Below, piece after piece: positions 34,548 through 64,000 of a DNA stretch of 64,000 nucleotides; the first letter of the stretch is position 1; the number at the start of each line of letters is the position of its first letter. A program made the translations under genes and the position numbers. The stretch lies in the NCBI GenBank assembly GCA_010909725.1, contig JAACMV010000001.1, forward strand, positions 981,764 to 1,045,763, read 5' to 3'. A model generated the notes under the pieces. It had not been told where the DNA came from, did no database searches, and was given only the letters and a program-made list of their open reading frames with translations. The DNA is from Picochlorum sp. 'celeri'. Its lineage: Eukaryota; Chlorophyta; Trebouxiophyceae.

Positions 34548-34567
34548 TTTATTATATGCGAGGATGA

Positions 34568-35536
34568 TCAATCCCCGTCAACAAGACTCTTTATGTGACT
34601 CACAAGGGAGGCTTCATCCCCTTTGTACATGTCAACAATTTCTCTACGGATGTACAACCCATCAGCGCCTGCGGCCCTGACCGATCGCGCCTTTTCAATA
34701 TCTCGCAGTCCGACAATACTGAGTGACCCGAAAGGCATCTCTCCTAAAACACCTTGCACCACATCAGACCCAAAACCTGCAATGCCAGACAGGGACAGAG
34801 AAACGCCAATATCCATGCAGTAAAAAGGAACACTAGCCTCTGCCATCATCTTCATCTCTGCCAAATTAACAACTTCTACGGGACTATCGAGACCTAATGC
34901 ACTTCCAAAACTTGACATGACAGGAGTCCCTTTAGGCCCAGTCACTGATGCAACAATGCCAAGCACCCCAGAACAACCTGTCGATTTTGCATTGACCAGT
35001 TGCACCGGATGCAGGAGCCAGTCGCGATAAAACACAGGCACACTTCGACACGCCTGACAAACCACAAAAGCGTCCTTATCGCCCTCTGGAGTCACCTCCT
35101 CGTCCACTCTCACGGAAAGTGCGTCCGCACCAGCTTGAACCAAACGTGCTGCTCGCTCTGCAACCTTCTCCGCAGACTCGACAGATTCTCCTTCACCCTC
35201 TGATCGTCCTACCTCAAAAATCAACAAAGGCCTCCCTTCAACCATACCAACCTCTGCAACCTTTTGAGAGAATGCAAAAGGAGTTGGCCCTGCACCAATC
35301 TTCAGGGCATCTTGCAAACGATTCTCCAACTCCTCCATACCAATTTCATCCAAGTACGCTTGGATCTTCTCCTTCTTCCTTTTAATGATACCCTCGAGTC
35401 TGTTGGCGGCAGCATCTCTCCCCTTGCCAAACTCTCCGTCAGAAAAAGGTTGAGAGTGGCAACGTCCACTTCGGCACCTCATATGCCGACTATACAGCTC
35501 AGGACACCCAACAAAAGACAATGTCCTACTAATCAT
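34568..35536 (-). CDS. IGPS-like TIM barrel lacking catalytic lysines
   Basis: About 322 residues from Met 35536; the frame stays open to 35806 but that part looks non-coding and faces the next gene. The alignment follows indole-3-glycerol-phosphate synthase: ARLVQAGADALSVRVDEE, VPVFYRDWLLHPVQLVNAKSTG, GVLGIVAS, and the C-terminal phosphate-binding IVGLRDIEKARSVRAAGADGLYIRREIV. The usual K.aSPS.G lysine strand is LLIFEVGRSEGEG and the second lysine (LCKDF) is FYRDW, so both key lysines are missing. It is probably a pseudo-enzyme or regulator in the plastid tryptophan pathway or elsewhere (inference). Confidence 0.75.
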   Translation of the reverse strand: MISRTLSFVGCPELYSRHMRCRSGRCHSQPFSDGEFGKGRDAAANRLEGIIKRKKEKIQAYLDEIGMEELENRLQDALKIGAGPTPFAFSQKVAEVGMVEGRPLLIFEVGRSEGEGESVESAEKVAERAARLVQAGADALSVRVDEEVTPEGDKDAFVVCQACRSVPVFYRDWLLHPVQLVNAKSTGCSGVLGIVASVTGPKGTPVMSSFGSALGLDSPVEVVNLAEMKMMAEASVPFYCMDIGVSLSLSGIAGFGSDVVQGVLGEMPFGSLSIVGLRDIEKARSVRAAGADGLYIRREIVDMYKGDEASLVSHIKSLVDGD

Positions 35537-35608
35537 TTCTATGTACACAATAATCAAGACCCTGTGAATGCCAAGGTGAATGCGTTCAACCACCAATTGA
35601 TTGCTGAT

Positions 35609-35628
35609 GGGTACCGGTACCGGTACCC
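35609..35628. promoter_or_regulatory. 20-bp perfect palindrome in divergent promoter
   Basis: GGGTACCGGTACCGGTACCC is exactly self-complementary and consists of overlapping GGTACC units. It lies in the 162-bp gap between the divergent IGPS-like and lipase genes. A dimeric transcription-factor site is possible. Confidence 0.5.
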
Positions 35629-35698
35629 AAATACGATTCATGATCACGGGTGTATATACCAGTTCCCATACTGACGGTATGCAAATAGAAGTGCAAGA

Positions 35699-36652
35699 AT
35701 GAAATACGTGGAAAGTACGAGGCAGAGTTGTTGGGGAGGATCTCTCTTCACCGTCAAATACCTGCCTGGCACAGGCAAACCCAAAGCAGCGCTGTGCTTT
35801 CATCACGGTTTATGTGAGCATGTCGGACGGTACTCTCACATATTCACGAGAATGGCAGAACATGGTATTGCTGTGTACTCTGGCGATGCCCACGGACACG
35901 GAAAGAGTGGAGGGGTACAACGGGTGTATTTTGAAAGTTTGGACGGCTTGATTGCAGACTTTGACGACCTGTGCAACAAGGCCAGACAGGACTGCACTGA
36001 AGAGTATGGAGACGTACCCTTTTTCATCGGGGGTCATAGCCTCGGAGGAATGATTGCTCCGCTGACGTGTCTGAAAGACCAGTCCAAGTGGAACGGTATG
36101 ACTTATTTTTTTTCACATTATTGCTCGCGTGCTGTGCTTCTTGAGCATAACACTCTTGGCTCTCATGATGCAGGTCTCTTGCTCTGTAGCCCATGTTTGG
36201 ACGTGGAATGGACAATGACGTTGCGAGTGCAGGCAGCACTCAGCAAAATATTCTCTGCAGCCATCCCCAGGACTAGAATCGTGCCAAAGATTGTGGCGGC
36301 GCACATGAACAAAGATCCTGCAAAAGTTAAAGAATACGAGGATGACGAACTTAATTATATAGGCCCACTTCCAGTCAGGACAGCTGAGCAAACAATGAAG
36401 GGGTTCAAGGCACTTGCTGCGGCACAGGGTGATTTCACGTTGCCCATCTACGCCCATCACGGAACTTCGGATAGAGTGACGGTATTCAACGCAACCAAAT
36501 CGTTCATGGAAGGCGTGAGCAGTGCGGATAAAACCTTTCACGAAGTACAGGATGGATACCACGAAGTACTGTTTGAAGAGAAGGCTGACCAAGTCCTGCA
36601 GACGATGATTGACTGGATTCTCGACCATGCAGTCGTGGCAGCGAAAATGTAG
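35699..36652 (+). CDS. Monoacylglycerol lipase-like alpha/beta hydrolase
   Basis: Exons 35699-36095 and 36174-36652 give 291 residues; the 78-nt GT-AG intron has no stop and keeps frame, so unspliced RNA could also be read through. Hallmarks: FHHGLCEHVGRYSHIF (oxyanion loop), GDAHGHGKSGG, the nucleophile elbow GGHSLGGMIA (Ser in GHSLG), HHGTSDRVT with catalytic Asp, and GYHEVLFE with catalytic His. This is the MAGL/lysophospholipase family acting on monoacylglycerols. Removing the intron restores the usual sequence KW-NGLLLCSPCL. Confidence 0.88.
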   Translation: MKYVESTRQSCWGGSLFTVKYLPGTGKPKAALCFHHGLCEHVGRYSHIFTRMAEHGIAVYSGDAHGHGKSGGVQRVYFESLDGLIADFDDLCNKARQDCTEEYGDVPFFIGGHSLGGMIAPLTCLKDQSKWNGMTYFFSHYCSRAVLLEHNTLGSHDAGLLLCSPCLDVEWTMTLRVQAALSKIFSAAIPRTRIVPKIVAAHMNKDPAKVKEYEDDELNYIGPLPVRTAEQTMKGFKALAAAQGDFTLPIYAHHGTSDRVTVFNATKSFMEGVSSADKTFHEVQDGYHEVLFEEKADQVLQTMIDWILDHAVVAAKM

Positions 36653-36674
36653 CCATTTTTTTTTAACAATCTGT

Positions 36675-37418
36675 ATGATGACCACTCTATATGATATCCT
36701 GGGTGTCGATGAGACTGCTGGCCAGAGAGACATTCGACGAGCATACTTGAAAAAAGTCGTATCCGAGCATCCAGATAAGGGTGGCTCTGCCACTTCTTTC
36801 GATAGACTACAAAACGCATACCAAGTACTCTCCAATCCAGAGGAAAGGAGCGCGTATGATGAGAAACGTGTCGCTGGTCAACGGGACACGAGACGTGGGC
36901 AAGACGAGGGTTTGCATCGCAACGATGCAACGACAAGTGCATATTATACCGAAAAAGACGGTGTGAAGGTGGAATATCATGGACAGAGGAGAGCGTCAGT
37001 GCGACCTTGTCGGAAGACAGAGGTCTGTGCTGGTCAAGGCAAGGAAGGAGGTGTTCAGTTTAGTGATGCCATAGAAGAGTGGAAGCGGAAGTATCATCAG
37101 GATCCAACAGACCCACTGTGCATAAAGAACCTGGGCATGGCATATATAGACAGAGCACGATACCATGCTGAGAGCGGACGGCATCACCATGCTGTTTTTG
37201 ATATTCAAGAGGCAGAACATGTGTCGCCTGGTCTGTTGGCAGAGTTGGTGATGGCCCAGGAGCGCATGGAGAATGGACAAGAACACCGTTGGGCAGGTCT
37301 CCTGTCGCGTCTGATGGAGTCTCTTACCGGACGCTTGAAGGATTCAGAAGACTCTGCCCACAGTTCTTCTGGCAGCAGTTGTTGTAGCGAGCCATGGGCT
37401 GCTACCTCTTCAGTATAA
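36675..37418 (+). CDS. J-domain (DnaJ-type) co-chaperone with novel C-terminus
   Basis: 247 residues from Met 36675. A complete J-domain (~1-66) with LYDILGVDETAGQRDIRRAYLKKVVSEHPDKGG and the HPD triplet, then FDRLQNAYQVLSNPEERSAYD. The remainder has no Gly/Phe or zinc domain; it contains a helical stretch (~130-210) and a Ser/Cys-rich tail. It should stimulate an Hsp70. Starts only ~20 bp after the lipase stop on the same strand. Confidence 0.86.
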   Translation: MMTTLYDILGVDETAGQRDIRRAYLKKVVSEHPDKGGSATSFDRLQNAYQVLSNPEERSAYDEKRVAGQRDTRRGQDEGLHRNDATTSAYYTEKDGVKVEYHGQRRASVRPCRKTEVCAGQGKEGGVQFSDAIEEWKRKYHQDPTDPLCIKNLGMAYIDRARYHAESGRHHHAVFDIQEAEHVSPGLLAELVMAQERMENGQEHRWAGLLSRLMESLTGRLKDSEDSAHSSSGSSCCSEPWAATSSV

Positions 37419-37494
37419 TATTCAGCACTATATATAAATATGAATGAATTGGTCCATACTATGTGAGAACGTTGAATGATTGAGGGAGCGCGAC

Positions 37495-38484
37495 ATGTTT
37501 TCCAAACATGGAGGAGGTCTCTACGGAGACTTGCCCAAAGCCAAGGGCGATACGGCAAATGGTTCATCTGATGACCAAAATAACGTTGATGAGGGTAAGA
37601 AATCGCGCTGGGGGGCAAGCGTGATGCGCACAGGGTTGGACCCAGCACTAGCACCGGTGGCAGTCAAGAGAAGGCCCCAACCCGTTGCAAAGGCGTCTGT
37701 TTCAAAATCCAAGGTTGCACGGGTTGAATCAGGCAATACCCCTCTGCGAAAGGTGCATGCAGCGCTGTCCAGTGACCCAATAGAGTCTCCCAGTGGGTTG
37801 GCCTTCAATACCACGGTACAGGACCCATATGACCCACTCGTCCCTAATAACTACGAGAAAATACTAGAAGAGAAGGAACGAGCGCGATTGATAGAAGAGA
37901 AAGAAATCGAGAGGTTAGAGCTGGAACGCCTGGCAAAGCAGAAGCAAAAGACTGCTGAGCGAGAACACGTGGCAGCGGAGCCAGTGCCCGAGAAAGGCAT
38001 GACCCTTGCGCAGAAAATGCTGGAGAAGATGGGGTGGAAGAAGGGTCAGGGCTTGGGCAAAAACAAGCAGGGCATATCAGAGGCCCTGACGGTGGAGAAG
38101 ACAGATGTCAAAAGTGGGCGGATTGTCGAGCCATCCATTGTCAAGTCGCAGGCATCCCCTACAGTTCCAAAAGGGCCCCCTTCCAAGGTCATTATTCTGA
38201 CTAATGTGGTAGGTCCTGGAGAGGTTGATGAGACATTAGATGATGAGATTGGAACGGAATGTAGTAAGCATGGCCAGGTGTCTAGCGTGCTGATTTTCGA
38301 AGTGACAGATCCGTCCTATCCACCCGAGGGTGCCGTTAGGATATTTGTCGAGTTCGAGGAGCAAGAAGCTGCGACAAAGGCCATGGAAGAGTTAGATGGG
38401 CGGTTTTTCGGAGGAAGAGCCGTCCGAGCAGAGTATTATGACCAGAAGCGATTCGATGACAATGACCTTGCACCAACACTGTGA
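37495..38484 (+). CDS. RBM17: SPF45/RBM17 (DRT111-like) splicing factor
   Basis: About 329 residues from MFSKHGGGLYGDLP, the usual N-terminus of this family. Middle: SRWG-like motif (KKSRWGASVMRTGLDPALAP), an acidic/Lys helix, a G-patch (LAQKMLEKMGWKKGQGLGKNKQGI, ~178-205), then a UHM-type RRM (SKVIILTNVVGPGEVDETLDDEIGTECSKHG...VRIFVEFEEQEAATKAMEELDGRFFGGRAVRAEYYD). It binds ULM motifs in U2 snRNP proteins and affects 3' splice-site choice; plant DRT111 acts in light and ABA splicing. Architecture is complete. Confidence 0.9.
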   Translation: MFSKHGGGLYGDLPKAKGDTANGSSDDQNNVDEGKKSRWGASVMRTGLDPALAPVAVKRRPQPVAKASVSKSKVARVESGNTPLRKVHAALSSDPIESPSGLAFNTTVQDPYDPLVPNNYEKILEEKERARLIEEKEIERLELERLAKQKQKTAEREHVAAEPVPEKGMTLAQKMLEKMGWKKGQGLGKNKQGISEALTVEKTDVKSGRIVEPSIVKSQASPTVPKGPPSKVIILTNVVGPGEVDETLDDEIGTECSKHGQVSSVLIFEVTDPSYPPEGAVRIFVEFEEQEAATKAMEELDGRFFGGRAVRAEYYDQKRFDDNDLAPTL

Positions 38485-38486
38485 TT

Positions 38487-39310
38487 TTACAATTTACATG
38501 TACCCAAACAAAACTCCTTCACAGCGTCTAAATCCCCCTCTTTCACAGATACTTTTTGAAAGATCACATGCAACGGGCGGTGGAATTTCCGCCTCTCTGC
38601 GAGATCACTAAACGAGAACCCATCTCCTTTGCCACTGAAGATGTTGTGCTCTCTCTCATCCTTATCGTTCCCAATGCTGTCCAGTCCACTCTCCCTGTCG
38701 CTCATATACATTTCATACACCATTTTTTCAAGCCTCTTCCTAATGAACTCTGCCGAATGAGCTTTTGCACCCCCATCCGATTTATTGCATGCCACCAGAA
38801 TCGGAACACCCCTTCCTCGGACCACTGGACTCGTCAGCAACCTATACATGTGTCGTGCCACCTCCTCTTTCGAAGAGTTAAAGTCCATACAATCCACAAC
38901 CATCACAATACCTTTCGCCCGTGGCACCTCTTTGAAAAAGTAAGACTCTAAGCGTGGATGCCCTGGCAGGTCAATCACATGGATGTTCTTCTCCACTCCA
39001 CCGACGCGCATCGTCACATCGCCCTCGTTCGGTCGCATCGATGTCACTGTTTCTCTGTTGCGCGACCCGTCGCCATCTCGAAGCCTGAGGAACATGGCTG
39101 TCTTGCCAGCGTTGCTAGGACCGACAAGAAGAAGAGACCAACCTCCCCCTCCAGACTTTCCTCTCCATACACGGGGTAGAATGAAAAAGAATACTACAAA
39201 GAACACTCATATCTCCATCAATGCCGACACCTCACCACAGGAACACGCAACAACGTACCAATGAGAATGGCAAGACCAAGGAGTAACCCCTGGACGACCT
39301 CTGACACCAT
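38487..39310 (-). CDS. SRPRB: Signal recognition particle receptor subunit beta
   Basis: Two exons (39259-39310 and 38487-39193, intron 65 nt GT-AG) give 252 residues. Exon 1 supplies the start of the single membrane anchor, GLLLGLAILI|VFFFILPRVW, which spans the splice site. The small GTPase domain has LLLVGPSNAGKTAMFLRL (G1), DLPGHPRL (G3), VVDCMDF and LVACNKSDG (G4), and the C-terminal family block FHRPLHVIFQKVSVKEGDLDAVKEF. It docks the SRP receptor alpha subunit at the ER. The stop lies three bases from the stop of the convergent SPF45 gene. Confidence 0.88.
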
Positions 39311-39636
39311 CTATTCTAGTCCTGATCGTTTAAAATAAAATATAATACATAATTTATCACGAAAGGTGCTTCACAGTGGCCAAGGAGCACATGAATCTAT
39401 TCAGTGCTGAAAATTGTGGTTTCAGCACTGATTTCCAAGTCGGACATTGCTTTTGATTCGATATCTATGGTCAGAAACTCCGTCGCTACAGGACCAAATT
39501 CAATTTACATATCACTGCAACCTACAGACCACGCCCATCAAGATACAGGGACTCTTCAGTGGTGATGCCATTCAGGATTCGTCCGTGAACTACAGTAGGT
39601 CGCTCGTATTCGTTGGCGAGAAGCACGTCTGTGGAT
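39311..39636. other. Divergent promoter region, contains one strong hairpin
   Basis: 326 bp between SRPRB and NDUFB9-like starts. The only notable structure is the inverted repeat at 39401-39431 (separate entry). No gene seen. Confidence 0.5.
39401..39431. repeat. Perfect inverted repeat, 12-bp arms, 7-nt loop
   Basis: TCAGTGCTGAAA (39401-39412) and TTTCAGCACTGA (39420-39431) are exact reverse complements around ATTGTGG. It could be a cruciform, a protein site or a stem in a 5' leader. Confidence 0.6.
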
Positions 39637-39960
39637 ATGGCTACAGCATTACAGAAATCTAGAGTAACAGGACTGTACAGGACCAGTCTGAAACAGCTGC
39701 TTTCTTGGGTTGTCAGTAGGGATGTCTTTGCCGAGGAAGCTGGCAAACTACGCAGAGAGTTTGACGCGTACAAGGACGTCAAGGACACGAATGAAATTGA
39801 GCGATTGCTGAGGCATGGAGAGGCTCGGTTGAAGGAGTTGGAGCACCCCGACCCGTATATTGTCCCATATAGACCAGGGGGAAGCATGTTTGCCAGGAAC
39901 CCTCCCTTTGTGGAGGGAACCAAGATCCATCTAGATTTTGGGAAGGAAGGGCACCATTGA
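39637..39960 (+). CDS. NDUFB9: Complex I subunit B22 (NDUFB9), LYR protein
   Basis: 107 residues from MATALQK at 39637 (an ATG 24 bp upstream is in frame). The LYR-motif helix VTGLYRTSLKQLLSWVVSRDVF, then LRREFDAYKDVKD, ERLLRHGEARLKELEHPDPYIVPYRPGGSMFARNPP match the B22 subunit of mitochondrial NADH dehydrogenase. LYR proteins bind acyl carrier protein. It is a small single-exon gene of the usual length. Confidence 0.85.
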   Translation: MATALQKSRVTGLYRTSLKQLLSWVVSRDVFAEEAGKLRREFDAYKDVKDTNEIERLLRHGEARLKELEHPDPYIVPYRPGGSMFARNPPFVEGTKIHLDFGKEGHH

Positions 39961-40101
39961 TCGTTTGTTTTCTTTTTGTAAGCACGTACATATCCATATA
40001 CTATCATGCATGGAGACATCAGGGCAAGGATGACGAAATAACGTTTCAAAGATGAAAAGCTTTGACAATTACGTATCCTGTCATCACGTGTCTCCGAAAC
40101 T

Positions 40102-40788
40102 TTATTTGTTGATTTCTTCGGCAAGAGATCCGTCTTTGCTCATTTCAAGAATGATGTCGCAGCCACCGACGAGTTCTCCCTTGACATACAGCTGAGGATA
40201 CGTGGGCCACTGGCTCTTTTCTTTCAACCCCTGCCTGACCTCCTGATCCTCTAAAATATCAAAATGGCCAAAGGCAGTGCAGCCTGCGTCCCGAAGAGCT
40301 TGCACTGCCTTTTGGCTGAACCCGCACCGAGGGGCGTCAGGGCTTCCCTTCATGAAGAGCATGACTGGTGATTGGTTCACCAGCATATCGAGCCTCTCAT
40401 CCAAGCTCATCTTCTGCGCCCGGCCTTGCTCCGCTATCGGACTGGCACCGAGACGGGAAGCCAGTTTATCCTGCAGCTCTATCGGGTCCATTCCCTGCAC
40501 CCGCTCCACCTCCTTCTCCTGCCACACAAGTATGCACAGGGGCACCGCCTGCACTGCATAACGCAGGGACACGTCCGTGGCCTTCTCGGCTTCTACACGG
40601 ACAACTTTTAATGCAGAACCATATTCTACTTCTACCGCCTCCAAGACTGGCTCCATATCCCGGCATGCTTCGCTCCAGCCAGCCCAGAAAAACAGGAGAA
40701 CATGCTGCTGTGACGCTGCACTCGACGACAGCAACGCGTCCAGTTCTGTCACACTGTGTGCCTCTACTCTATTGGTTCTGTCCTGCAT
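40102..40788 (-). CDS. GLRX3: Glutaredoxin-3/PICOT-type monothiol glutaredoxin
   Basis: 228 residues from Met 40788. An N-terminal thioredoxin-like domain has WAGWSEACRDM in place of WCGPC (one Cys only, usual for PICOT) and ends AVQAVPLCILV. A single monothiol glutaredoxin domain follows (~125-228) with the CGFS site (SPDAPRCGFSQKAVQAL), the TYPQLYVKGELVGGCDIILEM block and a C-terminal helix. These proteins bind [2Fe-2S] clusters with glutathione and serve cytosolic/nuclear iron-sulfur protein maturation. Some lineages have two or three Grx domains; this one has one. Confidence 0.9.
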   Translation of the reverse strand: MQDRTNRVEAHSVTELDALLSSSAASQQHVLLFFWAGWSEACRDMEPVLEAVEVEYGSALKVVRVEAEKATDVSLRYAVQAVPLCILVWQEKEVERVQGMDPIELQDKLASRLGASPIAEQGRAQKMSLDERLDMLVNQSPVMLFMKGSPDAPRCGFSQKAVQALRDAGCTAFGHFDILEDQEVRQGLKEKSQWPTYPQLYVKGELVGGCDIILEMSKDGSLAEEINK

Positions 40789-40975
40789 AGTTGTTTGGGA
40801 TGTATAGATATATCTGTGACGCATTTCCCTTGCTGTGGAAATGCCTTGCTCTCTGAGGAGAGATTCCTTCTTTGGAAGATTCAAGATGAGAGGCAGCATC
40901 CTTCTATGCTCCGTACATGCTGACCTCGGTCACGTATCAAATAGTTGTATCCAATTTTTGTACCCATCTATAATT

Positions 40976-42144
40976 ATGAACGGGCACGCAGAAGACCACC
41001 AACCTCGGAACATTCTCATAACCGGAGGGGCGGGATTCATTGCGAGTCACGTGGTGATCAAGTTGGTGAAAAAATACGGACACTACAAGGTATATGCTTC
41101 GCTGTGCTGAATGCTATTTTAGTGTACTGGTGTTACATCGCATCACATGTGCAGGTTGTTGTGCTCGATAAGTTGGATTATTGTGCAACTCTGAACAATC
41201 TCAGGCAGGTGAAGGATCACCTCAATTTCAAGTTCATCAAGGGAGATATTCAGAGCCCGGATCTACTGTCATATGTCTTAACAACAGAGGAGATCGATAC
41301 GGTGATGCATTTCGCCGCCCAGACGCACGTGGACAATTCCTTTGGTAACTCTCTTGCCTTTACCCACAACAACACGTACGGGACGCACGTGCTGCTGGAG
41401 GCATGCAGGAACTACGGGAAGATTACCAAGTTTGTGAATGTGTCGACTGATGAAGTGTACGGGGAGACCTCCTTGGGAAGTGAGCATGGGTTGACCGAGA
41501 GTTCCAGGCTGGAGCCCACCAATCCGTATTCCGCTGCCAAAGCAGGTGCAGAAATGATGGCAATGGCGTACTACACATCATACAAGCTTCCAGTGGTGAC
41601 AACCAGAGGGAATAATGTGTACGGCCCCCACCAGTTCCCCGAAAAAATGATTCCAAAATTCAGTCTGTTGGCGTCTCAGAACAGGAGACTTCCTATTCAT
41701 GGTGATGGCATGGCAACCCGTTCATATCTGTACGTCGATGATGTCGCGGAAGCGTTTGATGTGGTTTTGCACCGTGGTGTCCCTGGAGAAGTGTACAACA
41801 TCGGAACGAAGAAGGAAAGAACTGTCAGGGAAGTTGCGAGTGAGATTTGCAGAGTGTTTGGATTGGACCCTGATCAGTACTTGGAGTTTGTGAGGGACAG
41901 GGCATTCAACGACCAAAGGTACTACATTTCTGATGAAAAATTGACTGCTTTGGGATGGGAGGAGAAGACATCTTGGGAGGAGGGACTTCGGAAGACCATT
42001 GAGTGGTACCTAGAAGCCACGAAGCAGCCTGGATACTGGGATAATGGATCTGTTGAATTGGCTCTGGAAGCCCACCCAAGCCTGCAGACGACGCATGCTG
42101 CGTACAATCCGACGAATCCGCTCGAGACTGTCAAATCAATATAG
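40976..42144 (+). CDS. UDP-glucose 4,6-dehydratase (RHM N-domain type)
   Basis: Two exons (40976-41089 and 41155-42144, intron 65 nt GT-AG, phase 0), 367 residues. NAD-binding ILITGGAGFIASHVV starts the protein; then VVVLDKLDYCATLNN, the active-site region NVSTDEVYGET and YSAAKAGAEMMAMAY (catalytic Tyr/Lys of YxxxK), and substrate block TRGNNVYGPHQFPEKMIPKF. It is most like the plant RHM dehydratase domain that makes UDP-4-keto-6-deoxyglucose for rhamnose. No epimerase/reductase domain follows, so a separate protein must finish the pathway. Confidence 0.9.
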
Positions 42145-42190
42145 AAAAAAATCAATATTTATGTACATAATGCAATGAATGTTCATACAA

Positions 42191-42969
42191 CTATTCAAAA
42201 TCCGAGTCCTCATCGCTCTGAGTCTTGTTCATTTGTGAGTAAAATCCTTGACGAATGGAGTTGGCTATATCCGACGGATCACTCCTCGGAAGAGTCGAAG
42301 AAGGACGGATGACCTGGGACTCTAGGAGCCTCCCTTCCAAGATGGATGTGTCAAAGTCGTCCTTCCCTCCCAATCTATCGAATCCGACCAAACGCTCCCC
42401 TGCGACACCAGACTGGAAACATATTATACATGGGAGCATCCTGATGTTGAGCTTCTTAACCAGGAACGGAGCCATTTCCACGGACACCTTGACAAACCTG
42501 GTGTCAAAGTACCTTGGTGCTAAAATAGACAGATGCTTGTCCATTATTTTACAGCGATCAAAATCTGGATGAAAGAAATGAGCAACTACCCTATCAGTCT
42601 GTGTGCTCACCTCGAGGAGCTCTGCTTCCGAAATTTCCTCGTACGTCCCGTGCCCCTTCCGCTCCATTTCTACCCTCCTTTCTCGTTCTTCCTGAAGTTT
42701 AGCAAGCCTCTCCCCGTGCAACTTTTCTAGCTCGGGGTCATCAAACAAATCCTTCAAAGCGATACTTCTTTGTGCATCATGCCCGATGCGATCAGCCTCT
42801 CGCTTCTCCCTCAGCATTTCCTGCAGCAGTAACAACACAGGTGTGTCGTCGCCTTGAACACCAGTTGGCAAGGGAATCCACGTACCTTCTTATAATCCTC
42901 CGCAGCTGCCATAAACGCCTCTCCATACGCAATATTTTGCATTTGACTATTGTACTTGGCTGGATCCAT
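42191..42969 (-). CDS. TXNDC9: TXNDC9/phosducin-like thioredoxin-fold protein
   Basis: Two exons (42886-42969 and 42191-42820, intron 65 nt GT-AG, phase 0), 237 residues from MDPAKYNSQ. A Lys/Glu helix with KLHGERLAKLQEE and GHGTYEEISE leads to a thioredoxin fold without a CxxC (VVAHFFHPDFDRCKIMDKHLSILAPRYFDTRFVKVSVEMAPFLVKKLNIRMLPCIICF), as in TXNDC9. The family helps the CCT chaperonin fold tubulin and actin. The frame stays open upstream to 43296, overlapping the next gene's leader, so the longer start is unlikely. Confidence 0.85.
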
Positions 42970-43295
42970 CCTTTGCACGCTATCTTTTGAATTGACGTTT
43001 GAAACTACAGGAGATCTTCTTCTCTTCTCCTCATGGAAAGAATAGGGCTGGTCCTCTTGGACACTCGTATTTGAAAAAGTATTTCCGATTATATTTAAGA
43101 GGACGGGTTTGTATGGTGTATTGTGGACACAGCGACGACAAGGATGCTGGATCCTTGGCTGCCCATGCGGTACTCCTCTGGTGAAATCTAGGTTGGAATT
43201 GACCATGGATACAAACCTACTGTGACATGGATTTTGGCGCAGATAGGAAATCCAATTGTACGAGAAACCCATTTTGGACGCGAATAAAGCGAGCA

Positions 43296-53261: not shown

Positions 53262-56014
53262 AACATTCCCGCGATGCTGTCTTTGATTACCTGCCTTTCA
53301 TCGGGATCAGTGTCTTGATTTCAAATTTCGTACATAGATTCGAGGATTCGTTCGGGGGCGTCTCTGGACCGACCAGCCTCATGCGAGATGGGATGGTGCA
53401 GCCCATGTGTTTGAACGCATGGTTTGATGCGAATACTTCAAATATTTGGACATAGACAGATGGTTCCAAACGTACGGGGTGTTTGCTTGTGGACTTGAAC
53501 ATGAGACAGGGCAGTTTGTGGACATATGTTGGTCGTTGCCGACGGAAGAGGTGCTTTAAATACGTGGCAGATGTGTTGACCAACAGAGAACTGTAGCCAG
53601 GTCTGTAGAAGTTCGAGTGTGCACCGATATTGAAGGCAATGCCATGTCCCTAGTCCCTACGCAATTACAGAAAACTATATCATTATGATAGATGGTCCAT
53701 GTGATTCAACGTCCCCAAGTCAATTAACAGTGCAATTTGTTTGCTGTGTGTTGGGCAGGAGGCTAGTATCAGATGTCTTGTGGGGCACTCATCACCGTTC
53801 TCTTGCTCTTAAGCGCCATTAATTCCTTTCATCATACTATATATGATTCCTCAGTCATTTGATCGGTGTTGTCTTCTTCGTATATCCGCGTTTGGTCGCA
53901 GTATCCGTGATACATCTGAGATCCTTTGGGGTACCTGAGTGTTGCTCACTTCCAGTCATACCCTTCCTTGCAATGCTTGGTGTGCATCAATCCGGTATCC
54001 TTGGCTTCGAGATAATGCTCTATTCTTTCTTAGAGGCGAATCTCTTGGCGCTTTGGCCGCTGTGTGATTGATTACAATCTTCTTGTCTTCTATTTCCCAC
54101 AGTATCGATGTGAGTCATTCCAACCTATACCTTCCTTTTGTTTCGGCAGATCTTCGTGATTCTCTCGATCCTTTTGTTTTATCTCATATGATCGGTAAAT
54201 ATAATGCTGGGTTTTATGTGCTGAGAGGTCAATTGAAGGTATGGACTCAACCATCAAAGGAGGGAGGTTTCTGTCACCTGGAGGTGCTGAAAGTGAGCTA
54301 TGGTTGGTGCCATGATTTCTGATATTTGTCGACTGCTTCCTAATTGTGTAAAGCGATCCTGTCAGTCAAATCCACCATTTATTTTCTTCAAATCACTTCC
54401 ATTTGAGATGCCAGTGCTACCCTACTATCCGATATATCCTACTCTGTCTCAGTGTACACATAGCGAACCTGGAAATTGGAATAGACAACAGACAGGCCTT
54501 CTTTCAACGGAGCTTCAGGTCCAGCACAGACGAGACACGGGTCTTCAATCAATAGGATCGAAGCAAGGATGCTATGAATGGGGTCACAATGACTATCTCA
54601 CCTAGAAAACTCGCTTGGCTGTCAACGCTTGGTGGGTACAAAAAAGATTTGACCCACACTTGTTAGCAGGTCTTAGTTTCCTTCTCCCCATCAGATTACA
54701 CACTCAATCAACTCAGCCATGGAAACGAGCCCCAACGGAAGCAATATTGATGGTATCAATATGTTAGAAAGTTGCATCCCGTGAGAAAGGTCACAGGTAG
54801 ATTCCTGATGCTCTACCGGTGAGACGAAAACCTTCATCTGATGGTCCCTGCTGAATAACTCAGATTTGGCCACTCTTTTGGACGGTGTTGATTGATTCTC
54901 GGCATGCTAAATGTACTCATGAACCGACTGACTCTTTCATCCAAACCATGAAAATATTTCTTTTTGCAACAGTTGGACCAGTCAAAAAAGCCATCTGTTC
55001 TGGAGGAATACATGTAGAACTTTGTGGTCTAATGCAATTCCCCCGAATTTGATCATACTTGCCGGGCTCAAAGGATCCGGGCTGCCTGATTTTGGTCTTG
55101 GAGGTCGATGAGTAAAATATCGGGACATATATTGATCGGGGCGGACGGAGGACATGCTCTGAGTGCAGGGCAGTTGTGTTGACTGACAAAGTGTTGACAG
55201 GACAGCACCCTCTCATGCACCTCATGAGAAACAGTGCCATGTCAGTAACCATCTGCTTTTTGAGGATTATACTGATCACTCTAAACATGAGCAATTACAT
55301 CGAATCTTCTCTCATCTCTTTAGATGTTCATGAAATGCTCTTAGGTGCTCTCTGATGTTCTTAGAGCCTTTTCAGGTGTTCTCAGATGATCTTGGATGTT
55401 CTCAGAGCTTCATCAAATGCTCCCTGATGTCGATCACATGTTCTGATGATCTTAGATATTTGTTGAATGTCCATGAAATATTGATCTGATGTTCTCAGAG
55501 ATTCTGAGAGGTTCTTGTTCATTGAATCTTCTTTCATCTTCTTTGGCACTGCTGTTTCCGTAATAAGTTGGGGGCACTCTGGGGAGTGGGTCGATCGAGA
55601 GTATCGGCCGGTCCACTGAGGGCCGCGACAGATGAAGAAGACCGGTTTCGGAGGTGTCGGCAACCCGCCTTTGCGGCGCTGGGCCGCCCAGCAGAAACGC
55701 CCGTTGCGGCCCGGACCGTAGCCCAGCCCAGTTTTTTTGAAATATCTTTTCGTCGGGGGCCGAGCGAGGAAATTTCGGAGCCTGGCGAGGGGAGCGATTT
55801 TCGGCACATTTCCGGAAATCGCGCACATCGGCGGAGACCGCCCCTCGCGCCCGGCACCTCCTCCGGCGAGAAATGCAAAATCCCACACTTATGCAGTGTG
55901 TTATTCGATTGGGAGGCTCGTTTCCGGGCGATCGGTCTCGTGCCGGACGCCCCGATTTAAAGAAAATCCCGATTTTTTTATGGTTACAGCTGTAATCCTT
56001 AATCTACGCATCGC
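53262..56014. repeat. Tandem repeat array, unit 1 (2.75 kb)
   Basis: First of three head-to-tail copies. It starts AACATTCCCGCGATGCTG and ends CTACGCATCGC. Relative to units 2 and 3 it carries 364 extra bp (54190-54553) and lacks the 168-bp block seen in them. It shares a practically identical left end (~420 bp) with unit 2 but has many scattered differences further on. No coding frame is convincing; short frames repeated between units are by-products of the repetition. Confidence 0.9.
55561..55975. other. GC-rich island of repeat unit 1
   Basis: About 400 bp far richer in G+C than the rest of the unit, followed by a T-run and TTACAGCTGTAA, a 12-bp palindrome. Several frames are open on both strands only because of base composition. 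Equivalent islands are at ~58115-58525 and ~60650-61060. It might be a promoter or replication-related region. Confidence 0.55.
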
Positions 56015-58568
56015 AACATTCCCGCGATGCTGTCTTTGATTACCTGCCTTTCATCGGGATCAGTGTCTTGATTTCAAATTTCGTACATAGATTCGAGGAT
56101 TCGTTCGGGGGCGTCTCTGGACCGACCAGCCTCATGCGAGATGGGATGGTGCAGCCCATGTGTTTGAACGCATGGTTTGATGCGAATACTTCAAATATTT
56201 GGACATAGACAGATGGTTCCAAACGTACGGGGTGTTTGCTTGTGGACTTGAACATGAGACAGGGCAGTTTGTGGACATATGTTGGTCGTTGCCGACGGAA
56301 GAGGTGCTTTAAATACGTGGCAGATGTGTTGACCAACAGAGAACTGTAGCCAGCTCTGTAGAAGTTCGAGTGTGCACCGATATTGAAGGCAATGCCATGT
56401 CCCTAGTCCCTACGCAATTACAGAAAACTATAAAATCATGATGGATCAAATATATGGTCTATGTGATTCAACGTCCCCAAGGCAATTAACAATGCAATTT
56501 GTTTGCTGTGTGTTGGGCAGGAGGCTTGTATCAGCTGTCCTGTGGAGCATTCATCACTATTCTCTTGCTCTTAAGCGCCTTTAATTCCTTTCATCATACT
56601 ATATATGATTCCTCAGTCATTTGATCGGTGTTATCTTCTTCGTATATCAGCGTTTGGTCGCAGTATCCCTGATACATCCTTTTGGGTACCTGAGAGTTGC
56701 TCACTTCCAGTCATACCTTTCCTTGCAATGTTTGGTGTGCATCAATCCGGTATCCTTCGCTTCTAGATAATGTTCTATTGTTTCTTAGAGGCGAATCGCT
56801 TGGCGCTTTGGTCGCTGTGTGATTGATTACAATCTTCTTGCCTTCTATTTCCCACTGTATGGATGTATGTCCTTCCAACCCATACCTTCCTTTTGTTTCG
56901 GCAGATCTTCGTGATTCTCTCCATCCTTTTGTTGTATCTCATATAGGATCGAAGCAAGGATGCTATGAATGGGGTCACAATGACTATCTCACCTGGAAAA
57001 CTCGCTTGGCTATCAATCCTTGGTGGGTACAAAAAAATTAGACCCAGATCCACAATTGTTAGCAGGTCTCAGTTTCCTTCTCCCCATCAGATTCCACACT
57101 CAATAAACTCAGCCATGGAAATGAGTCCCAACGGAAGCAATATTGATGGTATCAATATGCTAGAAAGTTGCATCCCGTGAGAAAGGGCACAGGTAGATTC
57201 TTGATGCTCTACCGTTGAGACGGAAACCTTCATCTGATGGTCCCTGCTGAATAATTCAGATTTGGCCACTCTTTTGGACGGTGTTGATTCATTCTCTGCA
57301 TGCTAAATGCACTCATGAACCGACTTTTTCATCTAAAACCATGAAAATATTTGTTTTTGAAACAGTTGGGCCAGTCAAAAAAGACATCTGTTCTGGAGGA
57401 ATACATGTATAACTTTGTGGTCTAATGCAATTCCCCCGAATTTGATCATACGTGCCGGGCTCAAAGGATCCGGGCTGCCTGATTCTGGTCTTGGAGGTCG
57501 ATGAGTAAAATATCGGGACATATATTGGTCGCGGCGGACGGAGGATATGCTCTGAATGCAGAGCAGGGCAGTTGGGTGTTGACAGGACAGCACCCTTTCA
57601 TGCACCTCATGAGAATCAGTGCCATGTCAGTAACCATTTGCTTTTTGAGGAGTAAACTGATCACTTTAAGCATGAGCAATTATCGAATCTTCTCTCATCT
57701 CTTTAGAGGTTCATGAAATGCTCTTAGGTGCTCTCTGATGTTCTTAGAGTTTTGTCAGGTGTTTTCAGATGATCCTGGATGTTCTTAGAGCTTCATCAAA
57801 TGCTCCCAGATGTCGATCACATGTTCTCTGATGATCTTAAATATTTGTTGAATGTCCATGAAATATTGATCTGATGTTCTCAGAGATTCTGAGAGGGTCT
57901 TGTTCATTAAATCTTGTTTCATCTTCTTTGCTTTACTGCTGTAAGTAGGAAGGAAGATCTCCTACTTAATATATCTAATTAAGACCTGATTATAGATTTA
58001 AGTAGAATAATATATCGTGATCTTCATGGATACGTTCAGATGATAAGAGATGCTCTAGATCTCTAGGATGGACCCGTGGGAGATCCGAGGGGGTCCATCA
58101 CAACTGCTGTTTCCGTAATAAGTTGGGGGCACTCTGGGGAGTGGGTCGATCGAGAGTATCGGCCGGCCCACCGAGGGCCGCGACAGATGGAGAAGATCGG
58201 TTTCGGAGGTGTCGGCAACCCGCCTTTGCGGCGCTGGGCCGCCCAGCAGGAACGCCCGTTGCCGCCCGGACCGTAGCCCAGCCCAGTTTTTTTGAAATAT
58301 CTTTTCGTCGGGGGCCGAGCGAGGAAATTTCGGGGCCTGGCGAGGGCGCGATTTTCGGCCCATTTCCGGAAATCGCGCACATCGGCGGACACCGCCCCCC
58401 GCACCCGGCACCTCCGCCGGCGAGAAATGCAAAATCCCACAGTCATAGAGCGTGTTATTCGATCGGGAGGCTCGTTTCCGCTCGATCGGTCTCGTGCCGG
58501 ACGCCCCGATTTAAAGAAAATCCCGATTTTTTTATGGTTACAGCTGTAATCCTTAATCTACGCATCGC
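56015..58568. repeat. Tandem repeat array, unit 2 (2.55 kb)
   Basis: Left ~420 bp match unit 1; from about 56430 on it matches unit 3 with only homopolymer-length differences. It carries the 168-bp insertion at 57942-58109. Same closing palindrome and CTACGCATCGC end. Confidence 0.9.
57942..58109. mobile_element. 168-bp insertion-like block flanked by ACTGCTG, unit 2
   Basis: Absent at the matching site of unit 1 (55548-55554). ACTGCTG stands at 57935-57941 and again at 58103-58109, like a 7-bp target duplication. The block opens with a hairpin (AGTAGGA...TCCTACT) and closes with another (GGACCC...GGGTCC). It has no coding capacity; it could be a small non-autonomous element, or unit 1 could have lost it. 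Confidence 0.55.
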
Positions 58569-61104
58569 AATCATCGATTCCGATCGGGATCTGTGTCTTG
58601 ATTTCAAATTTCGTACATCAATTGGAGGATTCGTTCGGGGGCGTCTCTGGACCGACCAGCCTCATGCGAGATGGGATGGTGCAGCTCATGTGTTTGAACG
58701 TATGGTTTGATGCGAATACTTCAAATTTGGACATACACAGATGGTTCCAAACATACCGAGTGTTTGCTTGTGGACTTGAACATGATACAGGGCAGTTTGA
58801 AGACATATGTTGGTCGTTGCCGACGGAAGAGGTGCTCTAAATGCGTGGCAGATGTGTTGACCAACAGAGAGCTGTAGCCAGCTCTCTGTAGAAGTTCGAG
58901 TGTGCACCGATATTGAAGGCAAAGCCATGTCCCTAGTCCCTAGGTAGTTACAGAAAACTATAAAATCATGATGGATCAAATATATGGTCTATGTGATTCA
59001 ACGTCCCCAAGGCAATTAACAATGCAATTTGTTTGCTGTGTGTTGGGCAGGAGGCTTGTATCAGCTGTCCTGTGGAGCATTCATCACTATTCTCTTGCTC
59101 TTAAGCGCCTTTAATTCCTTTCATCATACTATATATGATTCCTCAGTCATTTGATCGGTGTTATCTTCTTCGTATATCAGCGTTTGGTCGCAGTATCCCT
59201 GATACATCCTTTTGGGTACCTGAGAGTTGCTCACTTCCAGTCATACCTTTCCTTGCAATGTTTGGTGTGCATCAATCCGGTATCCTTCGCTTCTAGATAA
59301 TGTTCTATTGTTTCTTAGAGGCGAATCGCTTGGCGCTTTGGTCGCTGTGTGATTGATTACAATCTTCTTGCCTTCTATTTCCCACTGTATGGATGTATGT
59401 CCTTCCAACCCATACCTTCCTTTTGTTTCGGCAGATCTTCGTGATTCTCTCCATCCTTTTGTTGTATCTCATATAGGATCGAAGCAAGGATGCTATGAAT
59501 GGGGTCACAATGACTATCTCACCTGGAAAACTCGCTTGGCTATCAATCCTTGGTGGGTACAAAAAAATTAGACCCAGATCCACAATTGTTAGCAGGTCTC
59601 AGTTTCCTTCTCCCCATCAGATTCCACACTCAATAAACTCAGCCATGGAAATGAGTCCCAACGGAAGCAATATTGATGGTATCAATATGCTAGAAAGTTT
59701 GCATCCCGTGAGAAAGGGCACAGGTAGATTCTTGATGCTCTACCGTTGAGACGGAAACCTTCATCTGATGGTCCCTGCTGAATAATTCAGATTTGGCCAC
59801 TCTTTTGGACGGTGTTGATTCATTCTCTGCATGCTAAATGCACTCATGAACCGACTTTTTCATCTAAAACCATGAAAATATTTGTTTTTTGAAACAGTTG
59901 GGCCAGTCAAAAAAGACATCTGTTCTGGAGGAATACATGTATAACTTTGTGGTCTAATGCAATTCCCCCGAATTTGATCATACGTGCCGGGCTCAAAGGA
60001 TCCGGGCTGCCTGATTCTGGTCTTGGAGGTCGATGAGTAAAATATCGGGACATATATTGGTCGCGGCGGACGGAGGATATGCTCTGAATGCAGAGCAGGG
60101 CAGTTGGGTGTTGACAGGACAGCACCCTTTCATGCACCTCATGAGAATCAGTGCCATGTCAGTAACCATTTGCTTTTTGAGGAGTAAACTGATCACTTTA
60201 AGCATGAGCAATTATCGAATCTTCTCTCATCTCTTTAGAGGTTCATGAAATGCTCTTAGGTGCTCTCTGATGTTCTTAGAGTTTTGTCAGGTGTTTTCAG
60301 ATGATCCTGGATGTTCTTAGAGCTTCATCAAATGCTCCCAGATGTCGATCACATGTTCTCTGATGATCTTAAATATTTGTTGAATGTCCATGAAATATTG
60401 ATCTGATGTTCTCAGAGATTCTGAGAGGGTCTTGTTCATTAAATCTTGTTTCATCTTCTTTGCTTTACTGCTGTAAGTAGGAAGGAAGATCTCCTACTTA
60501 ATATATCTAATTAAGACCTGATTATAGATTTAAGTAGAATAATATATCGTGATCTTCATGGATACGTTCAGATGATAAGAGATGCTCTAGATCTCTAGGA
60601 TGGACCCGTGGGAGATCCGAGGGGGTCCATCACAACTGCTGTTTCCGTAATAAGTTGGGGGCACTCTGGGGAGTGGGTCGATCGAGAGTATCGGCCGGCC
60701 CACCGAGGGCCGCGACAGATGGAGAAGATCGGTTTCGGAGGTGTCGGCAACCCGCCTTTGCGGCGCTGGGCCGCCCAGCAGGAACGCCCGTTGCCGCCCG
60801 GACCGTAGCCCCAGCCCAGTTTTTTTGAAATATCTTTTCGTCGGGGGCCGAGCGAGGAAATTTCGGGGGCCTGGCGAGGGCGCGATTTTCGGCCCATTTC
60901 CGGAAATCGCGCACATCGGCGGACACCGCCCCCCGCACCCGGCACCTCCGCCGGCGAGAAATGCAAAATCCCACAGTCATAGAGCGTGTTATTCGATCGG
61001 GAGGCTCGTTTCCGCTCGATCGGTCTCGTGCCGGACGCCCCGATTTAAAGAAATCCCGATTTTTTTATGGTTACAGCTGTAATCCTTAATCTACGCATCG
61101 CAAA
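58569..61104. repeat. Tandem repeat array, unit 3 (2.53 kb)
   Basis: Left end differs from units 1 and 2: the first ~45 bp are shortened and changed (ATCATCGATTCCGATCGGGAT). From ~58960 it equals unit 2 except for five single-base homopolymer changes. It ends in CTACGCATCGCAAA, directly before the Fanzor element. Confidence 0.9.
60474..60641. mobile_element. 168-bp insertion-like block flanked by ACTGCTG, unit 3
   Basis: Same block as 57942-58109, same flanking ACTGCTG copies (60467-60473 and 60635-60641). Its presence in both units reflects duplication of the unit after insertion. Confidence 0.55.
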
Positions 61105-61106
61105 TA

Positions 61107-61130
61107 CCGTAAAAATTTTAAATTTCGTTT
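61107..61130 (+). repeat. Left terminal inverted repeat of the Fanzor element
   Basis: 24 bp, pairs with 63649-63672 with mismatches at positions 2, 9 and 14. Preceded by TA. Confidence 0.75.
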
Positions 61131-61238
61131 AATTAAGGAATGTAACATCTAGTCCATTTGACTCTGGTCAATCCGAATCTTCTAGAACCTTGGATTGGTA
61201 TGAAGTCGAGCCGCCATCGCCAACCGTGTCATTTCAAA

Positions 61239-63551
61239 ATGAAAAAAAAGAGAAAGGTGTCCGCCACACCATCGAAAAAGGTGAAGAAAAAGAAGTTTAC
61301 TCGATTGGATGTGGCTATAAAGAAGGATAAAGACCGTTTTTTTCAATAAGACAGTCGTCAAGTGCACTTTGCAGCCTTTTTGTAAGTTCAAAGTGGTTCA
61401 ACGCGAAATTGAAGAATGTGTATTCTATCTGAGTAGACTACAGATTCATGTGCATCATGTCATGCATCTATTGTTATTGAGGAACGGTGGGGCATTTAGA
61501 GGACCACAAAGATGAAACTCTCTACGAACTCTACAACAAAATCTACAGACACCTTGCTAATCATTTGCAACAAAAGAAGGAGAGAAAGGATGTTGATACC
61601 AACTTGCGCGACTTGTGCAAGGAATATTGTGAGGAGACTGGGTTAAAAACAGATTGGCCACAGGGTTGTCTCTCTTCTTGGAGAGGCAAAACAATGGAGG
61701 CAGATGGCCCAGCAGTCGTCTGTTATGCATACCACGCATTTGGAAACCAATCTTAATGTATATGCATTACGGTATCTGAGATATTTGCTATTTCGAGACG
61801 ACACGGACTTGACCAAATCAAAAATTTGTCAAAGAAGAAGTTTGGACAAGTATTTTCTGCAATCACACAGGCATTCTGGGAGAGGACGAAAGTCAGTGAT
61901 ATTGTTGAACGTAGACCATCATTGACAGAATTTGCGTCTGATGTGTCAGTATGGGATGAAGCACAGAGAGCCTTGGATATCATTTGCTCGTTGGTGCCAA
62001 AGACGACAACTCTTTCTGAGAAATCCAGAATTTGCTTCTGGATTTTGGGTCACTTGGAGCCATTCGTGGAATCACTGCAACAGAGGTTCAGAAACGGAGA
62101 GTTTGAAGGGAAGAAGAGTAATACTTGGAAGACAGAAATGGACATTTTGTCTGTGTCCACAGATGGCCTGGAAACCAAGCATATCCATATCTCCAGCACA
62201 GCAGTGAAGGACTATGGTTGAGCAACTCGCAAAGAAATATCCATATATCAGAAAGATAGTAGATGACTGTCCAGCACTGGATGACTATACAATAAGTATT
62301 ATTATTGGAAATCGATATTCAACATGAAGCGAGTATTGAAAAAAAAGCACATGAAGGACCAAACGAAACTCAGATTCGATGCTCTATATGCACTGATGGC
62401 GTCTCTGTTTCTGCTGTTATAGACACTGTGAAGTCGGATCTGGAATGCAAGATAATCCATCTGCAGGATGATATGAATTACGTCAAAGCAAAGTTGTGGG
62501 CCACCTAATTGTGGGATGTTTGCAACCAACATTATTGCAAAAAAGATCAGATATGACCCTTTGCGTATTCTCCTTGGTGACATTTCCACCATACATTATG
62601 TTCTACTGAAGCCATTGTTGCATACATTAAAGTCACAAAAGGACGTTCTACAGAAACGAAAGGCTAAAAACAAAGACAAGACAGTCATCACAGAAAGGAT
62701 CAAAAGGTTGGCTGGCATACGCAAAGATGACCATGGTATATATCACACAGATTGTATCATTGTCGGTTTGGACCCAGGTAAAAAGTCAGCGGCCACGTGG
62801 GTTTTTCATGATTCGGAAAAGCAAAAGATCCATGCAAAGTGGAATGCAGAAAATGGTCGTCATACAGAGGTGGAAGACAGATATAAAAGTGATTCTCTGG
62901 GGTCAGGAGAATGGATCTTCTTATCTAGTCAGAAACAGTATACAGCCAAAAAAGAAAAGGATGTCTGAATACTGTCCTGCATGGGTGTCTGTGCCAACAT
63001 ACAAGACAGTAGATCTTGAGAAAATTTTTGAGAGTTACAGATTCCAAGTTTCTATGTGGCCCCAACTGCAACAAGCCTTCTTCGATGACAAAAAATGGTA
63101 TCAGAAACAGAAGATGAGGAAATTTTGCAAGGAAAAGTCGGCCATGGAGGATGTGGTTGCTCGAATCTGTGGAACAAGAAACAAAGAGGCACAGAAGAGA
63201 GTCATCGTGGCGTATGGTGATGGTGATAATAACGGCACAATGAGGGGCACTGCTCCTATCATGAGCACAAAACTGTTCAACAAGGTATCGGAATGTGCCA
63301 CAGTTGTGTTGGTTAATGAATTCAATACGTCCAAACTCTGTTCTTGCTGTCATGAGGCAATGGAACAGTACAACAAACAATTCAGGATGAAACGTTGTCA
63401 CAACAATGAATGCATTCGAAATGTTTGGGACCGTGATGTCAATGCCAGTATCAATATCAAAGACTTGTTTTTGGAAAAGTGTCACAATGGATCTCGAATC
63501 AAGGCTTTCAAGAGGACGAGGAAAAGGCAAAGGACATCAACACGGCAATGA
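61239..63551 (+). pseudogene. Fanzor (eukaryotic TnpB-like RNA-guided nuclease), frame-broken
   Basis: A TnpB/Fanzor protein is read in successive frames. The N-terminus, from ATG 61239, is highly basic (MKKKRKVSATPSKKVKKKK), a nuclear-localisation signal. Then come helical segments (e.g. THLETNLNVYALRYLRYLLF near 61720-61780), the RuvC-I motif VGLDPGKKSA (Asp at 62771), the RuvC-II-like VNEFNTSKLCSCCHEAM (63312-63362), a C4 zinc finger completed by RCHNNEC, and RuvC-III WDRDVNASINI (63425-63457). Spacing fits the Fanzor pattern D-X(125-275)-TS-xx-C4-RD. About nine frame changes occur, with no gaps between segments, so introns do not explain them. It is either a decayed gene or an intact one with assembly errors at homopolymers. 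Members cut DNA guided by a 3'-encoded omega-type RNA. Confidence 0.85.
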
Positions 63552-63648
63552 ATTCGGCATGTAAGTCGGCTGCTTTTTGCAGACGCTATGCTTCAAGATA
63601 CAGCAGAGAGAACGATGGAACTTCCAAGTTTGGAACATTCCGTCCGAC
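63552..63648 (+). ncRNA. Candidate 3' guide-RNA (omega/fRNA) region of the Fanzor element
   Basis: The ~97 bp between the Fanzor stop and the right TIR have no ORF but hold small hairpins (CTGC-TTTTT-GCAG near 63570-63583; TTCCAA-GT-TTGGAA near 63622-63635). In known Fanzor and TnpB loci the guide RNA scaffold comes from exactly this place, running to the element end. Placement by analogy only. Confidence 0.35.
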
Positions 63649-63672
63649 AAACGAAATTAAAAAATTTTACTG
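63649..63672 (-). repeat. Right terminal inverted repeat of the Fanzor element
   Basis: 24 bp, AAACGAAATTAAAAAATTTTACTG... on the plus strand, complementary to 61107-61130 at 21 positions. Followed by TA. Confidence 0.75.
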
Positions 63673-63705
63673 TAATTTATGGCTACTTATTATTTATTAT
63701 TATGA

Positions 63706-64000
63706 TTAGATTTTGACACCTGGAGGCAGAGCACCGTTGTTCTCAAACATGTAGATGAGATCTCGGGAGACATGTTCCTCTGGCTCCCAGGTGTCCTCTG
63801 ATCCATCCATCCATCTCACCAAATACGCACGAGAGTCTCCCTTATTTCGGACATCGAGAATCTTCTCAGCTTTCGCGTACTCCAGGTTATCTTGGTAATC
63901 GGCTACGACTCTTCCGACATGTACTTCTCGTGGACCCACACAGGTTCATCTTCGTCGGGAAATTTCACCAAGTACTCCTTGGCTCCATCGCCATTTTCTA
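63706..64000 (-). CDS. CAO: cpSRP43 (chloroplast SRP 43-kDa, CAO), 3' end, with one apparent frame break
   Basis: The C-terminal chromodomains of cpSRP43. Reading leftward from the window edge, one frame gives GDGAKEYLVKFPDEDEPVWV (chromodomain 2) and ends at a TAG after YMSEES (63906-63908). The next frame, open from 63939, continues VADYQDNLEYAKAEKILDV...YLVRWMDGSEDTWEPEEHV (chromodomain 3) to the stop at 63706. The two join as in plant cpSRP43 if one base is missing near 63906-63910. The protein delivers light-harvesting proteins to the thylakoid with cpSRP54. Its ankyrin repeats and N-terminus lie outside the window. The Fanzor element sits 31 bp past the stop. Confidence 0.85.

Follow-up and report, generated by a model that had tools for sequence, protein, structure and literature searches.

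A transposase-less Fanzor1 transposon in the alga Picochlorum sp. 'celeri', with possible copying between homologous chromosomes

The window, a stretch of 64,000 nucleotides that runs to the very end of scaffold C1, contains close to this end a gene for Fanzor1, a predicted RNA-guided nuclease and eukaryotic relative of the CRISPR nucleases, carried by one copy of a transposon of ~2.57 kb (61105-63674) with terminal inverted repeats (TIRs) and TA at either end. An earlier sequence-only reading had placed a Fanzor unit at 61239..63551; the Fanzor is indeed there, and the true unit is larger, extending from 61105 to 63674. The transposon ends, the 20 copies, a sister family with a transposase, an omega-RNA candidate and the location at a scaffold end all go beyond that reading. 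The features are as follows.

61104..61106, plus strand: ATA at the left boundary, the predicted TAM; TA is the target dinucleotide
61105..63674, plus strand: whole family-1 Fanzor element; DNA similarity between copies begins and ends here amid unrelated flanks
61105..61130, plus strand: left TIR, TA included
61200..63551, plus strand: Fanzor1 coding region, interrupted in the window copy
61242..61259, plus strand: KKKRKV basic stretch
62392..62409, plus strand: TDGVSV
62765..62782, plus strand: RuvC-I, GLDPGK
63315..63350, plus strand: relocated RuvC-II glutamate and first zinc-finger cysteines, NEFNTSKLCSCC
63387..63413, plus strand: second zinc-finger cysteine pair, MKRCHNNEC
63426..63458, plus strand: RuvC-III, WDRDVNASINI
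63599..63674, plus strand: omega-RNA scaffold candidate, 76 nt, with a UACAG/CUGUA closing stem, one hairpin and a right-TIR hairpin
63649..63674, minus strand: right TIR, TA included
63675..63689, plus strand: predicted guide segment in the flanking DNA, its length taken from SpuFz1

The motifs recognized earlier (KKKRKV, GLDPGK, NEFNTSKLCSCC and WDRDVNASINI) are all located at the positions first given for them, and the KKKRKV stretch is one that we take to be nuclear-localisation-like. In the window copy DPG lies in a different frame from the remaining motifs. The frame at 62631-63551 matches Pfam PF07282 (Cas12f1-like TNB) at E=3.9e-9, which beats the curated cut-off, so the match is not due to chance; this match and alignment A1 provide the C4 zinc finger and the RuvC-III RD expected of a Fanzor. 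D546 (of DPG) is invariant across 29 relatives, as are T399, D400 and G401 (TDG) in alignment A2, and a TDG motif is described for the Fanzor1 WED domain in an excerpt of PMC10711439. The same excerpt gives as the Fanzor fingerprint DPG plus a glutamate six residues ahead of the zinc finger. The spacing in the window protein, E-FNTSKL-C, agrees with this definition, and by this fingerprint the rearranged active site that had been proposed is present, with both DPG and the relocated RuvC-II glutamate.

A profile built from the 29 relatives matches the solved proteins SpuFz1 (2.5e-21), PpFz1 (5.8e-15) and GtFz1 (3.7e-13), whereas the best non-Fanzor1 match, to a protein named Transposase, scores 0.0073, and the TnpB chains 8bf8/8h1j score 0.13; the family is thus nearer to the solved Fanzor1 proteins than to TnpB. 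Searches of solved structures with single sequences gave no match, an NCBIfam search gave nothing near a cut-off, and pattern searches for relatives in viral_contigs matched none. Among named proteins the best relative comes from Picochlorum sp. BPE23, and a 783-aa environmental protein (P0028), seen without genomic context, is 97% identical. A tree made by a quick method covers 70 of the 75 search matches (P0004, P0037, P0045, P0072 and P0073 were left out) and has no Fanzor2 or TnpB rows.

The proposal of a Fanzor in a green alga therefore stands, and can be narrowed to type 1 by the profile match to solved Fanzor1 proteins; we regard the window sequence as almost certainly a Fanzor1 transposon. 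That it is instead a bacterial TnpB on contaminant sequence is extremely improbable. The TNB domain is also found in TnpB, but the window protein combines DPG with the relocated glutamate and TDG, at least 20 copies lie on ~1-Mb scaffolds plus two 25-kb ones, the best named match is a Picochlorum relative, and neither a bacterial scaffold nor a placement with TnpB was seen. We rejected this candidate, since Fanzor1 structures match far better than TnpB.

The element termini are the inverted repeats TACCGTAAAAATTTTAAATTTCGTTT and TACAGTAAAATTTTTTAATTTCGTTT, and a search with the TIR pattern (up to 3 mismatches) finds 48 family-type ends genome-wide, compared with 0 for a reversed control pattern. 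The genome (27.41 Mb in 30 scaffolds, which fits the P. celeri assembly published in PMC7225527, built from PacBio reads, totalling 27.43 Mbp as two 15-scaffold sets and showing 0.8% SNP heterozygosity) contains at least 20 copies of this family, which we call family 1, at 99-100% identity over a 961-base query, plus two at 68%. All counts of copies, divergent Fanzor-like frames and repeat loci from genome searches are lower bounds. Eighteen of the 20 copies, two of them on 25-kb scaffolds, are no more than 105 kb away from the end of a scaffold. At C27 and C15 a 2.5-kb repeat sits between the left end and the Fanzor part of the element, a copy on C11 is missing its left end, and there is a 5' fragment at C22:14081. 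Opposite the insertion at C27:11957, the homologue C15 has the right flank straight after ATA and the element is absent; the left flanks do not match, and this empty-site check of insertion at TA applies to the right side. In the C17/C8 insertion pair (L021/L022) the left terminal repeat is altered, with TACTCC for TACCGT, and the Fanzor frame is still open. A ~530-bp MITE-like element at C2:1322212-1322742 (L051 163-693) has Fanzor-type TIRs and no Fanzor, and a one-sided TIR-like end on C3/C23 resembles that of this element.

The window copy is interrupted several times upstream of 62631-63551. Aligned with the other copies, it shows 8 indel columns of its own and 0 substitutions of its own; because the breaks are mostly private single-base indels of this kind, they look for the most part like long-read indel errors at the scaffold end; one break common to the window copy, C21 and C29 may be real. 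Introns were considered as a source of the breaks and rejected, as sister copies read through without interruption. An open 783-codon frame is kept by 13 of the 20 near-identical family-1 copies listed, which answers the suggestion that intact copies be sought elsewhere in the genome; the other seven are L010, L013, L019, both L023 copies, L025 and the window copy. It had been argued that the window copy is recent or recently active because all domains remain despite frame changes. The open copies bear out the activity, but not the reasoning, since the window breaks are probably for the most part sequencing error, and recent mobility of family 1 is well supported. Values of dN/dS are 0.25-0.34 for family-1 pairs that involve the most divergent copy, L026, and among close copies they are too noisy or reach 1.99. 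Purifying selection is visible solely against the most divergent copy, since between the closest ones nonsynonymous changes are at least as frequent as synonymous changes.

The family-1 element in the window has the TIRs and TA at both ends that characterize the Tc1/mariner-pogo group, and the DDE transposase of its own that a member would also carry is absent; with no transposase it would be non-autonomous. A sister family (family 2) on C20 does have such a gene. Its 6,025-bp element, with ends similar to those of family 1, contains an open Fanzor frame of 811 codons, which shares ~50% identity with the window family, and an 896-codon open frame for a pogo-type transposase (DDE_1, PF03184, 5.7e-13; L061 2925-5612, minus strand). 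As family 1 has no transposase, it has probably been moved in trans. The family-2 element lies 3 bp past the stop of a neighbouring gene, presumably adaptin-like, and its allele on C5 is split by indels. Broken relatives of the family-2 transposase are present at C3:884690-886460.

In both families the sequence after the Fanzor stop codon is predicted to fold as a three-stem omega-RNA candidate closed by UACAG and CUGUA. The CUGUA strand is the right repeat plus TA, and the closing stem encloses one hairpin and the TIR hairpin. The fold z scores are -3.8 for family 2 and -2.2 for an 80-nt stretch of family 1, and with longer family-1 stretches the fold is weak (-0.55 to -1.6). According to an excerpt of PMC10711439, the guide RNAs of Fanzor1 have a three-stem shape of which the TIR and the target site duplication form part. 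Rfam gave no match at gathering score, a tRNA search found none, and the motif was sought after three divergent Fanzor loci and not found. At the left end, the base before TA is A at 11 of 11 family-1 boundaries read (one of these, C21:101779, may be recombinant), and T, not A, at the family-2 site. By analogy with CATA for SpuFz1, the A before TA may reflect the TAM of the nuclease.

Scaffolds of similar length with matching flanks and common insertions form pairs (C1/C21, C8/C17, C15/C27, C5/C20, and further C2/C22, C4/C30, C11/C19 and C13/C29), so that insertions can be compared between homologues. At 8 of the 9 sites that could be assessed, both homologues carry the Fanzor element, a count that omits the truncated copy C22:14081 (8 of 10 with it) and C21:101779, left out because C1 ends before it. 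As a control, a 2.5-kb Fanzor-free repeat is confined to one scaffold at 7 of 7 clear loci (Fisher p 0.0014 for 8/9 vs 0/7), and occurs on both homologues only where it is linked to a Fanzor element. These loci omit C10:152824 and C7:649407, and with both the control is 0/9 (Fisher p 0.0007); for C14 and C6 confinement to one scaffold means that no second scaffold matched. The two sets also differ in location: most Fanzor sites are close to the ends of scaffolds, which are regions of frequent exchange, and the control loci are internal.

The C19/C11 pair is the most informative. The flanks differ by ~1% (42 substitutions in ~4.25 kb on the left and 9 in ~0.5 kb on the right), whereas there are 0 substitutions in the 2,503 bases of the element that are in common, against ~25 expected from the flanks; on either side, the first substitution in the flank comes ~15 bp away from the element. 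(This expectation was computed with a right flank of 787 bases rather than about 510; ~25 stands.) Four more pairs have 1, 0, 0 and 0 substitutions inside the element against 9.2, 12.5, 12.3 and 26.8 predicted from their flanks, by Poisson expectations that ignore SNP clustering, and two of the four have one single-base indel inside. Ordinary allelic DNA, sampled over 10 kb (33247-43259 of the window vs C21), has 116 substitutions and no identical run longer than 484 bp. The pairs L011/L014 and L021/L022 are uninformative because their flanks (1 and 0 substitutions) are almost or quite identical as well, as is the C2/C22 MITE stretch, with 0 differences in 851 bp including flanks; the C3/C23 stretch with one TIR-like end has 21 substitutions in 1,001 bp. 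C5/C20 has 5.3 kb with 0 substitutions but 15 gap openings. C27/C15 shares a 6-kb identical tract with no gap column in 8.7 kb; this may be a collapsed segment and is therefore not taken as proof of copying.

The C11 copy lacks the first 68 bp of the element, and at its right junction, which has 2 additional bases, the flank picks up again 16 nt downstream of where the C19 copy is inserted. According to an excerpt of PMC10432273, SpuFz1 cuts one strand after base 16-17 and the other after base 20-21. The C11 junctions would fit capture of the element in a Fanzor cut, although this is a single event.

These observations can be put together in an explanation that, taken as a whole, we think somewhat better than even: family 1 is a recently mobile, transposase-less, TA-target (pogo/mariner-like) Fanzor1 transposon that would be inserted in trans, served by the cutting of its own omega-RNA-guided nuclease, and able to home. 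Insertion at TA would probably be carried out by a pogo-type transposase like that of the sister family. The 3' end would then give rise to an omega-RNA in which the scaffold ends with the right repeat and TA and the ~15 nt of right-hand DNA that follow directly serve as guide. The loaded nuclease would cut an empty copy of the same site, one showing ATA ahead of the guide sequence, chiefly on the homologous chromosome, and repair would copy the element across, at times with faulty end joining. Of this, the analysis shows the element and its ends, the open frames of sister copies, the motifs, the transposase of the sister family and a predicted fold common to two families; RNA expression, cutting and homing are inferred. 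Within this explanation it is quite likely that the nuclease serves the element, while homing between homologues is a tentative proposal, plausible but somewhat short of probable. We are slightly more guarded still about RNA-guided homing in a eukaryotic nuclear genome as the general conclusion, to which the identical elements in divergent alleles, a putative ATA filter on the insertions that survive and the 16-nt C11 junction would point.

The presence of identical elements on both homologues might also arise in assembly, if phased contigs were interrupted at this multi-copy element and both pseudohaplotypes were then given a single sequence, the Fanzor element itself being real. The assembly is described in part of PMC7225527 as FALCON-Phase pseudohaplotype output without short-read polishing, identical tracts between homologues are found as well at the C2/C22 MITE, the L021/L022 flanks and C5/C20, and the ungapped C27/C15 alignment is of the kind that an artefact would leave. 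We nonetheless consider such an artefact, though a serious rival, less likely than not, because C19 and C11 differ structurally at both junctions and have substitutions ~15 bp away, and therefore both alleles were assembled through the element; moreover, substitutions specific to pairs persist, and the 2.5-kb repeat was not made homozygous at its 7 clear loci. The C19/C11 pair and the repeat control thus argue against an artefact, but the cases are few. A little less likely again, but also a serious rival, is general recombination without the nuclease, either through loss of heterozygosity or through ectopic gene conversion between subtelomeric copies that are nearly identical. It would suit the crowding of 18 of 20 copies towards scaffold ends and the subfamily substitutions common to several loci (e.g. 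L015, L016 and L017), but at C19/C11 the identity reaches no more than about 15 bp past the element in either direction, and the A before TA is left unexplained.

Homing aside, the element resembles SPu-1/SpuFz1 of Spizellomyces punctatus, in which, from excerpts of PMC3627910 and PMC10432273, Fanzor1 is the sole gene of an element of ~2.1 kb that has TIRs and TA duplications, is present in many copies and contains no transposase. The SpuFz1 TAM, CATA, ends in ATA, as does the TAM predicted here, and its 75-nt omega-RNA scaffold at the right end compares with the 76-nt candidate (PMC10432273, in part). Unlike SPu-1, family 1 has another host, a distantly related protein and a transposase-bearing sister family, and its TAM and RNA are predictions. 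PGv-1, PUl-1 and PUl-4 of Bao and Jurka (2013) likewise carry Fanzor1 with or without a transposase, between TIRs and TA (PMC3627910, in part); in contrast to their Tc/mariner elements, the transposase here is of the DDE_1 (pogo) type and the diploid host has comparable alleles. Fanzors of Chlamydomonas, Volvox, Chlorella and Auxenochlorella, also chlorophytes, are similar by host alone (excerpts of PMC3627910 and PMC12636532), and Picochlorum is absent from the Bao and Jurka table as excerpted. These comparisons suggest that the family-1 element is a new member of a group already described, and that the new part is the proposed homing. A precedent is TnpB of IS200/605 and IS607, whose RNA-guided cutting works to the advantage of the element and, in plasmids, is called a "gene drive" in passages of PMC11870625; that system is prokaryotic and experimentally tested, whereas a Fanzor counterpart is proposed here from comparison of alleles. 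We found no report in the open-licence literature of Fanzor copying between homologues, and an excerpt of PMC10432273 states the biological role of Fanzor as unknown; copying between homologues, if true, might hint at the function of Fanzor. In P. celeri, which is diploid and can be cultured, the open Fanzor frames, the candidate transposase, the predicted guides and the possibility of comparing alleles would make homing directly testable. The alga is also a source of Fanzor1 proteins not yet characterised, together with their natural omega-RNA candidates.

More distant Fanzor-like frames are also present in the genome. Among the matches listed these include C20:45180-48233 / C5:47520, C10:1080021 / C16:1071868, C11:1142431 / C19:34320, C14:386044 and others, and several, of 860-1034 codons, are open around the match.

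To the left of the window element, positions 53262-61103 are occupied by three tandem units of a ~2.5-2.75-kb repeat that recurs elsewhere in the genome at many loci, singly or as short arrays. This repeat seems to form a separate mobile family, one unit of which lies inside the C27/C15 Fanzor element. To the right, near the scaffold end, an open frame on the minus strand (63706-63945) encodes a chromodomain (PF00385, 8.8e-9). A plant-type telomere pattern has no match in the genome, and a threefold TATAGGG pattern has 1, which is internal on C6. The extreme ends of C15, C8 and C17 (L043, L032 and L042) have two or so CCCTATA/TATAGGG units and are telomere-like.
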